Assembly: GCF_000812185.1 (NCBI RefSeq)
Contig: NZ_CP007026.1
Coordinates: 328,426 to 392,425 of the forward strand
DNA: 64,000 nucleotides
DNA from: Candidatus Nitrosopelagicus brevis
GTDB taxonomy: Archaea > Thermoproteota > Nitrososphaeria > Nitrososphaerales > Nitrosopumilaceae
Reading direction: 5' to 3'
How positions within the stretch are numbered: position 1 is the first letter of the stretch; each line of letters begins with the position of its first letter. The position numbers were made by a program, and so were the translations under genes. Positions 20,698-24,853 of the stretch are shown here, in pieces. Below the pieces are notes generated by a model. The model was not told where the DNA came from and made no database searches. It worked only from the letters and a program-made list of their open reading frames with translations.

Positions 20698-21273
20698 ATG
20701 TCATTTGATTTTGAAACAAAGATCTCAGCAAAATTCATAGATGAAAAAACCATTGTACTTAATCCAAAAATGCAGAATATTTTGACAGAACGAGGGTTTG
20801 GTGAACTACAAAATAATACATTGGTATTAGATTCATTTGAAACATTATATCTCTTGTATAACAATAAACTTGAATTAAAAAAAGTAAATAAAAATATCAT
20901 TTTTGATGAATTAATTCAAAAATACACCCAAAAGGATGATGATACTCTAACTAGATTTCTGCTTTATAGAGACTTACGAACTAAAGGTTATGTTGTGAAA
21001 GATGGTTTTGGATTTGATTCTGATTTTAGAGTATATGAAAAGGGGAATTATGGAAAAAAAGATGCTAAATTTCTTATTTTTGCATTCAATGAAGGTACTC
21101 AACAAAAAATTGGAAAATTGTATAAAAACATTCAAGAAATTACGCAAATGGGTAAGGAGCCTATTATTGCAGTAATTGAACGTCGTGGAGAAATAATATA
21201 TTATAAAATCAATAAAATGAATTTCTTAGAAAATCAATCTGAACTTGAAATGAAGGATTTTAATTTTAATTAG
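20698..21273 (+). CDS. endA: tRNA-splicing endonuclease subunit, catalytic His absent
   Basis: EndA-family subunit of 191 residues, which cuts bulge-helix-bulge motifs in pre-tRNA and pre-rRNA. The C-terminal nuclease domain shows LYRDLRTKGYVVKDGFGFDS, then FRVYEKG (Tyr113), and MGKEPIIAVIERRGEIIYY (Lys153). The expected HxKYLV histidine is Asp122 in KKDAKFLIF. The triad is therefore Tyr-Asp-Lys rather than Tyr-His-Lys. It may be the non-catalytic partner of a heteromeric enzyme, or an altered active subunit. Its 3' end overlaps the PLD-like gene by 8 bp, convergently. Confidence 0.88.
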   Translation: MSFDFETKISAKFIDEKTIVLNPKMQNILTERGFGELQNNTLVLDSFETLYLLYNNKLELKKVNKNIIFDELIQKYTQKDDDTLTRFLLYRDLRTKGYVVKDGFGFDSDFRVYEKGNYGKKDAKFLIFAFNEGTQQKIGKLYKNIQEITQMGKEPIIAVIERRGEIIYYKINKMNFLENQSELEMKDFNFN

Positions 21274-21928
21274 GATTTACAGCCCATTCTGAAGAATATT
21301 TCAATAAACTATTTCTTTCAGCAAATTCAAAATCATAGACCTTGACAGATGATGTTTCATCAAGCCATAATTTTTCAAAATCTTTAATTTTTGTTTCAAC
21401 TCTTGATTTATCATTCCATGATGTGAACACATCAATTGTTTCAAAATTCTTTGCTCTTCTGGCTAACATGACGCTTGATGTACCTGAAAAAACAACTGAG
21501 TCTCCATTTGCATCCCTGAAAATTCCCACCTTCTCAGAAAATGTACCATCAATATCTTCTGAACTTGGAATTCCAATCTTCAACATAAGATTTCCATCAT
21601 TAACCAATCTTCTAATTTGTTCTAACTTTACATCTCTGATTAACTCTGGATTAAAATTCTTCCAACTATTTCCGTTTTTTGAAAATAATTTTGTCATCAT
21701 ATTCAAATCTTTTATTCCAAATTGGTGCCCTGATATCAGTCTCATTCTTGCATTTGGCGTTGAATTATGAAATCCTAGCGATAATGTAGTTAAACCACTT
21801 AATGTCACATATTCGACTGCTCTATCATATTCGATACAATTATTCAAACAAGGAATTAAGAAATCTGAAACTATATCATCTTCATCTGATCTGTATTGTT
21901 CTTTTAATTTTAATTTTCTAAGTTCCAT
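21266..21928 (-). CDS. PLD-like nuclease-family protein with degenerate motif
   Basis: A 220-residue protein resembling the phospholipase-D-like domain found before some superfamily 2 helicases. The core reads GTFSEKVGIFRDANGDSVVF then SGTSSVMLARRAKNFETIDV and FTSW. In active members the first motif is HxKxGIF and the second GSxNxT; here the His is Ser and the Asn is Val. No helicase is fused or adjacent. It could be a decayed remnant or a binding protein. It is convergent with endA and upstream of nothing on its strand except tRNA-Glu. Confidence 0.65.
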   Translation of the reverse strand: MELRKLKLKEQYRSDEDDIVSDFLIPCLNNCIEYDRAVEYVTLSGLTTLSLGFHNSTPNARMRLISGHQFGIKDLNMMTKLFSKNGNSWKNFNPELIRDVKLEQIRRLVNDGNLMLKIGIPSSEDIDGTFSEKVGIFRDANGDSVVFSGTSSVMLARRAKNFETIDVFTSWNDKSRVETKIKDFEKLWLDETSSVKVYDFEFAERNSLLKYSSEWAVNPN

Positions 21929-22178: not shown

Positions 22179-23084
22179 ATGAACTTGGATGAAATTATTA
22201 AAATTATTGGTCCGACTAACTCTCCAATTGCAATAGGTGGATACAATTCTGATGATTTTGACACTGATTGCAACATCCACAATTTAGTTATCTTTGATGG
22301 AAAAGAAACATCTGATGAAATTATCAATCATGAATCAAAAATTCTAAAGATTTCCCACGGCAATCTATCAGAAACTAGCACTGAAAATTTAATTTATTAT
22401 GATAATCTAGAAATCATCCAAGATCCGGAATGGGAACTTAAGATGTTAGTATCTAAAATACAAGAAAAGAAAAACCAATTGTTTTCCACATCTTCAAAAA
22501 CTGCTCTTGTTGAATCTCAACTATCATTATCTAAGGCTAAAAATGCTCTAGAAAATGAGGATCCATTTGTTTCATGCTGGATAAAATGTGGCATAGTTTC
22601 TCTTATAGATTCAATTCTTTTACAAAATAATATTTTACCAAATCCAGTTCATGCGCTATCTTCTATACGAAGTTTGAAACAAAAAGATACAAGTCAATTT
22701 GTCGATAAAATCATCTCTGAAACAGGAATTGAAAGAGCAACTTCTTCATTATTGCCTAGAATGTTAAAATCAACTTGTGGTTTTTCTGACATGATTGAAA
22801 AAAATCAAAATTCCACTATTATTGAAACAAAGGCTAACTATCTAATTGAAAATTCTTTATTATCTGATTGTTACTTGTATCTAAATTTTCAAAACAAAAT
22901 TAACTTTTACAAAATTAAAAATTCATTGAATCTAAACTCAGATAAAATTCATGTTTTGAAAACTGCATTTGATCTTACACACACACCTTCTGAATTAACT
23001 TCCTCAATCGATTCAATGAATGAAATCATTGATAAATTATTAAGCATCAGTTTCAATGTTAATAAAAAATCAAAGAATCCTTAA
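22179..23084 (+). CDS. Uncharacterised 301-residue protein
   Basis: Not recognised. The N-terminal 70 residues (IGGYNSDDFDTDCNIHNLVI) have an alternating pattern with acidic residues after a Gly-rich loop, reminiscent of a nucleotidyltransferase-like fold, but the full GS(x)DxD motif is not present. Residues 90-245 are helical, with SLSKAKNALENEDPFVSCWI and IERATSSLLPRMLKSTCGF. No signal peptide or TM segment is visible. The nearest neighbour downstream is the cysteine-rich peptide gene 24 bases on, which has its own TATA-like box. Confidence 0.7.
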   Translation: MNLDEIIKIIGPTNSPIAIGGYNSDDFDTDCNIHNLVIFDGKETSDEIINHESKILKISHGNLSETSTENLIYYDNLEIIQDPEWELKMLVSKIQEKKNQLFSTSSKTALVESQLSLSKAKNALENEDPFVSCWIKCGIVSLIDSILLQNNILPNPVHALSSIRSLKQKDTSQFVDKIISETGIERATSSLLPRMLKSTCGFSDMIEKNQNSTIIETKANYLIENSLLSDCYLYLNFQNKINFYKIKNSLNLNSDKIHVLKTAFDLTHTPSELTSSIDSMNEIIDKLLSISFNVNKKSKNP

Positions 23085-23108
23085 AACCAAGTTCATAACT
23101 ATTAGAGC

Positions 23109-23258
23109 ATGACAGATCAAGCATGCGGATGCGAAGCAGCTACAGGCGATCCAGACTATGAATGTGATTGTGCAATGCAAGGAACTTGCCTTTGTGCTAA
23201 TGATTGCAAATGTACCGTGGATGTCTGCAAAGAAGCAGTATCTCAGCTAAACCCATAG
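23109..23258 (+). CDS. Metallothionein-like cysteine-rich peptide (49 aa)
   Basis: ATG at 23109 to TAG at 23258. Nine of 49 residues are cysteine (6, 8, 19, 21, 27, 29, 33, 35, 40), arranged as four CxC pairs plus one; only one aromatic residue is present (Tyr18). That density and the CxC spacing resemble metallothioneins, which bind Cu(I), Zn(II) or Cd(II) in thiolate clusters. A TTAAAA box lies at 23081-23086, the right distance for a leaderless start. No homologue is recalled by name. Copper binding would suit an ammonia oxidiser with many cupredoxins, but this is inference. Confidence 0.75.
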   Translation: MTDQACGCEAATGDPDYECDCAMQGTCLCANDCKCTVDVCKEAVSQLNP

Positions 23259-23347: not shown

Positions 23348-24853
23348 GTGAAACTACCAATCATTATTGCAACATTTTCACTACTATTGATAATTCCACT
23401 AGCATCTCAAAATTCATTTGCTCAAGTTAATTCAGGTGGATTTCAAGCAGGCGGTGTAAATGTTGATGGGTCTTGGTATGTTGGTGAAGGTCTCAAAGTC
23501 GGTGACTATTTCAGCTTTAACGTATGTCATGTAGATTATTTAGATTGTTCAGATTTTGACATGGCACTGTGGGTTCAAGAAGAAGTTCGTGTTGGAACTG
23601 AGGATAAATTTAGAATGCAAGTTTTGGTTTATGATGGTAGTAAAATTGTTAAAGGAGTAATGGATGTTGGTCAAGTTGCACCAGAACCTACTGGCGGAAC
23701 TGAAGAAATCTCTTCATATCGAAGTGTTTACAAGTCTTCTATTGCTTGGCTTTCTGCATTTGCAACAAAAGAAATAGAAGACGATGGAGTATACTTAACT
23801 GGAAAAGGCCCACGAGAATTTAGAGCAGCTTCTTGGGGAAAGATTGGAAATATTGGTGGTCAACAAATCTTGCCTTCTGCTGAACAAACTATTTCAGTTG
23901 GAGCTGGTCAATTTGATTCAATTCTACTTACTTGGAAGACAGGTGGTCAACAAAGTAAAGCTTGGATTGTAGATGAATTTCCATTTCCAATCAAAGCTAA
24001 AACTTTCATGCATGTTTCCCAAGGTATTCCTCCAGTAGAATATGATTTTGAACTATTAGATTACAAAGAAAATGTATCTTCCAATCCATTTGTAAATGTT
24101 GAAACTACAGCTGCAAAACAAGCTGCTGCAGGATGTCCTGCAGAGTATCAAAAGACAAAATTTAATGAATCTACAAATACATTTTCAATGATTGTTAAAG
24201 GTGTCATTGGTCCAAAAATTGTAAAACAAGGATGTGATATTGAGATGTTCATTGATTTCAAGCGAATGGTAAATCCTACTGAATTTGTAGACCAAGTACA
24301 TTATGATATTGTAGTATTTGGTGATACATCAAAACCTCCAATCAAAACAGTTTCTGCTGAAGAAGGAAGAGCTGAATTATACACCGCATCTGGTCAAACA
24401 TATAGATTCGTGTTGGCAGATCAGCCTCCTGGAATATACACATATGCAATAGTCGTTTATGGTACTGGTCCTGAACACATTCTAGGTGGTAATCCTGACA
24501 CATCTGGATTAATGACATTTGAAATTGAAGTCGTAAAAGGTGGAGACACATCATTTTCTGCACCTCCTAATGCATCAATCACTGATATTCCACAATGGGT
24601 AAAAAATAATGCCGAATGGTGGGCAGACGGACAAATTGATGATGCATCATTTGTTAGCGGCATACAATATTTGATTAATCAGGGAATAATGAAAATTCCT
24701 CAAACTGCACAAGGCAGCGGTTCTGGTTCTGATGGAATTCCAGAATGGATTAAAGGTAATGCAGAATGGTGGGCTGCAGGTCAAATAGACGATAATACAT
24801 TTGTTAGCGGCATACAGTGGTTAATTTCAAATGGAATTATGAGAATATCTTAA
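23348..24853 (+). CDS. Secreted protein with duplicated IPxWVKNNAxWW module
   Basis: A 501-residue exported protein. The start is a GTG at 23348, followed by a signal peptide (KLPIIIATFSLLLIIPLASQ) ending near NSFA. Residues 30-260 form a beta-rich domain of unknown type, and 265-395 a second beta domain. Two copies of a module of about 38 residues end the protein: IPQWVKNNAEWWADGQIDDA near 415 and IPEWIKGNAEWWAAGQIDDN near 464, each followed by FVSGIQ(Y/W)LI and (G)IM(K/R)I. The module is common in secreted thaumarchaeal proteins; it recurs at 63896. Function unknown, presumably at the cell surface. Confidence 0.85.
   Translation: MKLPIIIATFSLLLIIPLASQNSFAQVNSGGFQAGGVNVDGSWYVGEGLKVGDYFSFNVCHVDYLDCSDFDMALWVQEEVRVGTEDKFRMQVLVYDGSKIVKGVMDVGQVAPEPTGGTEEISSYRSVYKSSIAWLSAFATKEIEDDGVYLTGKGPREFRAASWGKIGNIGGQQILPSAEQTISVGAGQFDSILLTWKTGGQQSKAWIVDEFPFPIKAKTFMHVSQGIPPVEYDFELLDYKENVSSNPFVNVETTAAKQAAAGCPAEYQKTKFNESTNTFSMIVKGVIGPKIVKQGCDIEMFIDFKRMVNPTEFVDQVHYDIVVFGDTSKPPIKTVSAEEGRAELYTASGQTYRFVLADQPPGIYTYAIVVYGTGPEHILGGNPDTSGLMTFEIEVVKGGDTSFSAPPNASITDIPQWVKNNAEWWADGQIDDASFVSGIQYLINQGIMKIPQTAQGSGSGSDGIPEWIKGNAEWWAAGQIDDNTFVSGIQWLISNGIMRIS

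Follow-up and report, generated by a model that had tools for sequence, protein, structure and literature searches.

A conserved nine-cysteine small protein of the Nitrosopumilaceae as a candidate cytosolic metal-thiolate module

What is the role of a 49-amino-acid open reading frame (ORF) with nine cysteines in the genome of an ammonia-oxidising archaeon? The frame is located at positions 23109-23258 (+) of a stretch of 64,000 nucleotides from Candidatus Nitrosopelagicus brevis (hereafter the window), and a preliminary description had presented its product as a metallothionein-like peptide. Ammonia-oxidising archaea (AOA) are among the most abundant cells of the ocean, and copper is needed for ammonia oxidation. 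A search of the open literature revealed no AOA metallothionein, no matching Nmar_ locus, and no earlier description of the protein, here called Cys9, which apparently is an undescribed small protein present family-wide.

The translation of the ORF, MTDQACGCEAATGDPDYECDCAMQGTCLCANDCKCTVDVCKEAVSQLNP, contains cysteines at residues 6, 8, 19, 21, 27, 29, 33, 35, and 40, arranged in four CxC pairs (CGC, CDC, CLC, and CKC) with the ninth Cys unpaired. Y17 is the sole aromatic residue and His is absent. The nine cysteines in 49 residues, the four pairs, and the single aromatic residue of the preliminary description were all recovered in this translation. Among the 471 stop-to-stop frames of at least 40 aa in the window, that of Cys9 alone carries more than two CxC pairs, and not one such ORF was obtained among the 14,636 of 100 random windows made with a first-order Markov model. 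The median dN/dS over 1,965 pairs of Cys9 sequences is 0.10, and values of 0.10-0.21 were obtained when the Cys9 of the window was compared with its close relatives; as judged from these ratios, Cys9 is under purifying selection.

When 400 genomes of the class were searched, matches to Cys9 were found in 202, every one of them within the Nitrosopumilaceae. Within this family, the gene is present in 202 of the 221 genomes sampled (the matching plus the listed non-matching Nitrosopumilaceae of the class search) and in 127 of the 131 that are at least 90 % complete. Of the four good genomes that gave no match, three have a contig end at the site expected for the gene, and G166 is the only one lacking Cys9 at the locus itself. 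The carriers include, by their record titles, Nitrosopelagicus, Nitrosopumilus, Nitrosotenuis, Nitrosarchaeum, and Cenarchaeum, in agreement with the ammonia-oxidising host proposed earlier. Beyond the Nitrosopumilaceae, no convincing Cys9 was obtained when 398 genomes of the phylum were searched with a profile (best match E = 0.007 over 23 residues). Viral carriage was rejected, as Cys9 was not found among the viral contigs searched.

Exactly nine cysteines with the spacing 2-(10/11)-2-6-2-4-2-5 are present in all 109 distinct copies, 91 of which are stand-alone proteins and 18 of which form the tail of a larger protein, discussed below. Among the outcomes that the preliminary description had named as speaking against it was a Cys pattern not kept by the relatives; the pattern proved to be invariant. 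The same holds for A5, G7, and D20 (109/109), while A10, M23, Q24, G25, and K41 are each found in 108 copies and E42, adjoining K41, is also nearly invariant. Several other non-Cys positions are freely variable.

The promoter-like box that had been assigned to the gene was substantiated by comparison with relatives. A TATA-box promoter element, aatccttaaaaccaagt, spans positions 23076-23092 (+) and is found at a conserved distance in the upstream regions of the relatives, which have ACTAACCTTTTAAAACAAGT in common. The box, with its core TTAAAA at 23081-23086, coincides with the site of strongest conservation upstream of the gene, where A is found at -25 in 100 % and T at -28 in 98 %. This core is located 23-28 bp 5' of the ATG of Cys9, a distance at which the TATA box of a leaderless archaeal transcript is expected; its position suggests that the Cys9 transcript is probably leaderless and made from the gene's own promoter. 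The stop codon of the preceding gene in the window, c2, falls within this box.

This c2 gene (22179-23084 (+), 301 aa) and the downstream gene c0 (23348-24853 (+)), which encodes a predicted secreted protein of 501 aa, are the syntenic neighbours of Cys9. The order c2-CYS-c0-c4-c1-c3, in which CYS stands for the Cys9 gene, is kept in nearly all single-contig genomes of the family that were examined, each of which encodes Cys9. Homologues of c2 and c0, those of c2 being distant, are also located close together in three other AOA families (f2, f3, and f5), with no nine-Cys gene between them; on this basis, Cys9 looks like an addition that arose in the Nitrosopumilaceae. None of the neighbours of Cys9 could be recognised as a metal gene using Pfam and NCBIfam, and c0 is given here as context, no role as a partner being claimed for it. 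A Pfam match was not found for c0, at the C-terminus of which a repeat like IPxWIKxNAxWWAxGQIDDxxFVSGIQxLIxxGIM occurs twice; in several Nitrosopumilaceae genomes, c0 matches 15-21 places, mostly via this C-terminal part. Positions 21266-21928 (-) of the window encode a protein of 220 aa that is part of the conserved upstream neighbourhood of the relatives, and the weak NCBIfam match of this protein to a phospholipase D-like anti-phage protein (E = 1.7e-4) is far below the cut-off. The biofilm adhesins Nmar_0455-0459 (PMC12448741) are distinct from Cys9 and are probably encoded ~9-17 kb upstream in the relative genome G044, a position deduced from a 2,799-aa frame in that genome.

A chance ORF, or conservation of a non-coding nature, could be considered for 23109-23258 in view of the small size of Cys9 and its belonging to no annotated family of Pfam or NCBIfam. 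Such an explanation is contradicted by a dN/dS of ~0.1, by cysteines that are invariant in 109 copies, by the conserved promoter and synteny, and by the random windows, 100 in number, that contained nothing alike; it was rejected as having practically no likelihood. The Cys9 ORF is a genuine gene.

Two features of metallothioneins, a small size with a high content of Cys, largely as CxC, and few or no aromatic residues, are seen in Cys9 (49 aa, 18 % Cys, four CxC, one Tyr). The score of Cys9 against the metallothionein model PF00131 is, however, 15.6 bits, with model positions 5-29 aligned, and the cut-off is 23. In a control, 3 of 30 shuffled sequences in which only the cysteines were kept in place matched the model with a best E value of 0.0025, and 15 of 37 real Cys9 members did so with a best E value of 0.0078. 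Because the shuffled sequences also match, and with the better best E value, the likeness is one of analogy and not of homology, and membership of PF00131 was rejected. PF02069 gave no match in the Cys9 members searched or anywhere in the N. brevis genome. From the metallothionein-like peptide of the preliminary description, thiolate metal binding is retained as the best reading of this candidate, in line with the invariant cysteines, and membership of a metallothionein family is not claimed.

It is rather probable, in our estimation, that Cys9 is a cytosolic metal-thiolate module that buffers or shuttles a soft metal, either Cu(I) or Zn(II); metal binding, the identity of the metal, and the choice between buffering and delivery are points that we infer. 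The protein would fold in the cytosol around a metal-thiolate cluster, to which the four CxC pairs and the lone Cys would contribute some nine thiolates. By analogy with the beta domain of vertebrate metallothionein, this could be an M(II)3Cys9 or a multi-Cu(I) cluster. The occurrence of invariant cysteines amid several non-Cys positions that are free to vary argues for the metal-thiolate reading. AlphaFold modelling of Cys9 yielded a pLDDT of 49 and no confident fold without metal, and a C-terminal helix at residues 38-47 was predicted with low confidence; the poor model is compatible with metal-dependent folding, of which it would be a weak indication.

The near-invariant residues A5, G7, D20, M23-Q24-G25, and K41-E42 suggest that Cys9 has a specific fold or partner and is not a pure metal sponge. 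The conservation of these and other non-Cys residues, close to that of the cysteines and complete for three of them in all 109 copies, would also be in keeping with a structural zinc interaction module, in which one or two Zn hold a rigid mini-fold whose surface (ACGC, CDCxMQGxC, and CKEAV) docks a partner and whose tail form recruits this partner to the membrane. The reuse of the domain as a cytosolic tail after a flexible linker and the helix predicted, at low confidence, near its end could be explained in the same way. Structural Zn sites are usually CxxC knuckles, however, and nine cysteines that are mostly in CxC pairs are unusual for them. Moreover, zinc-finger families of Pfam and NCBIfam were not matched by Cys9, and a sequence search of the PDB returned weak matches only, to metallothionein fusions and to a UBR-box (E = 0.045). 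A structural zinc module is therefore considered rather unlikely.

The tail form is a second architecture, found in many genera, in which the Cys9 domain is the C-terminus of a membrane protein of ~450-490 aa. This protein consists of a signal peptide, an outer region of ~300 aa, and one transmembrane segment (residues 350-369 of the tailed protein) with basic residues, after which follow a conserved inner segment, GGYxTNRGEA, a Pro-rich linker, and finally Cys9. According to the positive-inside rule, the basic flank of a transmembrane segment marks its cytosolic side. Because basic residues follow the transmembrane segment, the Cys9 tail is predicted to reside in the reducing cytosol, at the inner face of the membrane. 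The AlphaFold model of the membrane protein has a pLDDT of 37; like the model of Cys9, it is of insufficient quality for searching by fold. The single-pass surface protein family (L136:5648-7021 (-), with relatives L031-L041), located beside cofD/cofC-like genes, occurs through much of the AOA order and has no convincing match in Pfam or NCBIfam. Its tail is a Cys9 of type A, a Cys9 of type B, or absent, and varies between genera; in other AOA families the membrane protein is present without a Cys tail, and the N. brevis ortholog, which adjoins cofD/cofC-like genes, ends without Cys. In the many relatives with the tail form, N. brevis not being one of them, metal might be bound by the soluble protein as well as by the membrane-tethered one.

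Type A tails retain the start Met of the stand-alone protein (...PTMVDQACGC...) and nest among the stand-alone Cys9 genes in a DNA tree. A stand-alone Cys9 gene and the tail present in the same genome are, in one case, 97 % identical in DNA. A tree of the ectodomain has the type A tails in two places, with moderate support. The simplest account of these sequences is that an in-frame copy of the stand-alone ORF overwrote the tail of the membrane protein, probably more than once.

The domain is fused to a surface-exposed membrane protein that itself occurs in much of the AOA order and that, depending on the genus, has the tail, a divergent one, or none; this might also be expected of a sensor. 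In such a sensor, the cytosolic metal or redox state would be reported by the Cys domain and coupled to the cell surface by the tethered copy. Cys9 is not accompanied by a DNA-binding, kinase, or other output domain, though, and the stand-alone form is near-universal in the family whereas the fusion is not, the Cys-less N. brevis ortholog being a case in point. A sensor is consequently deemed improbable.

With respect to copper, the metal-thiolate reading has to be considered together with the genes available for handling this metal. The HMA domain of CopZ/Atx1 chaperones (PF00403) was not matched anywhere in the N. brevis genome; this genome and that of the relative G044 have neither an HMA domain nor a P-type ATPase of any kind, and the same searches detected both in 14 of 14 control genomes. 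Cys9 is a concrete and synthesizable candidate for cytosolic copper handling where HMA chaperones and P-type exporters are missing. For a soil AOA, Nitrososphaera viennensis, CopZ, CopA1/A2, and Csp were described as serving cytosolic copper, Csp, with 18 Cys (15.3 %, from which a length of ~118 aa follows), being proposed to hold it (PMC7785015). Cys9 might be a metallothionein invented by the Nitrosopumilaceae, a Cu(I) buffer that replaces the missing CopZ/CopA in streamlined marine lineages and that was repeatedly copied as a membrane-tethered metal-handling tail. We offer this scenario tentatively and hold it to be doubtful as a whole. A simple replacement of CopZ/CopA is weakened because the absence of the ATPase does not track Cys9: a P-type ATPase is present in 40 genomes of the Nitrosopumilaceae, a family in which Cys9 is nearly universal. 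Among 120 good genomes sampled, those listed without the ATPase (at least 20) are all Nitrosopumilaceae. The sequence of Cys9 fits zinc as well as it fits copper.

Compared with known systems, Cys9 resembles SmtA/BmtA (PF02069) in being a small Cys-rich prokaryotic protein, and differs from it by the lack of a PF02069 match and, in the protein of the window, of His. It shares with Csp of N. viennensis that it is a Cys-rich AOA protein. The fold of Csp, a protein of ~118 aa, is a helical bundle, whereas Cys9 has 49 aa with CxC pairs and belongs to a different archaeal family. The beta domain of vertebrate metallothionein (PF00131), in which four CxC pairs are followed by a lone Cys and an M3Cys9 cluster is formed, is like Cys9 in the order and number of its cysteines, its small size, its acidic character, and its few aromatic residues; in Cys9, the first spacing is longer and conserved non-Cys motifs are present. 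Relative to the entire vertebrate metallothionein, Cys9 has one cluster's worth of cysteines. The pair of a soluble and a membrane-tethered form was not seen in the metallothionein families compared. If the metal-thiolate reading is true, Cys9 would constitute a metallothionein-like family in archaea.
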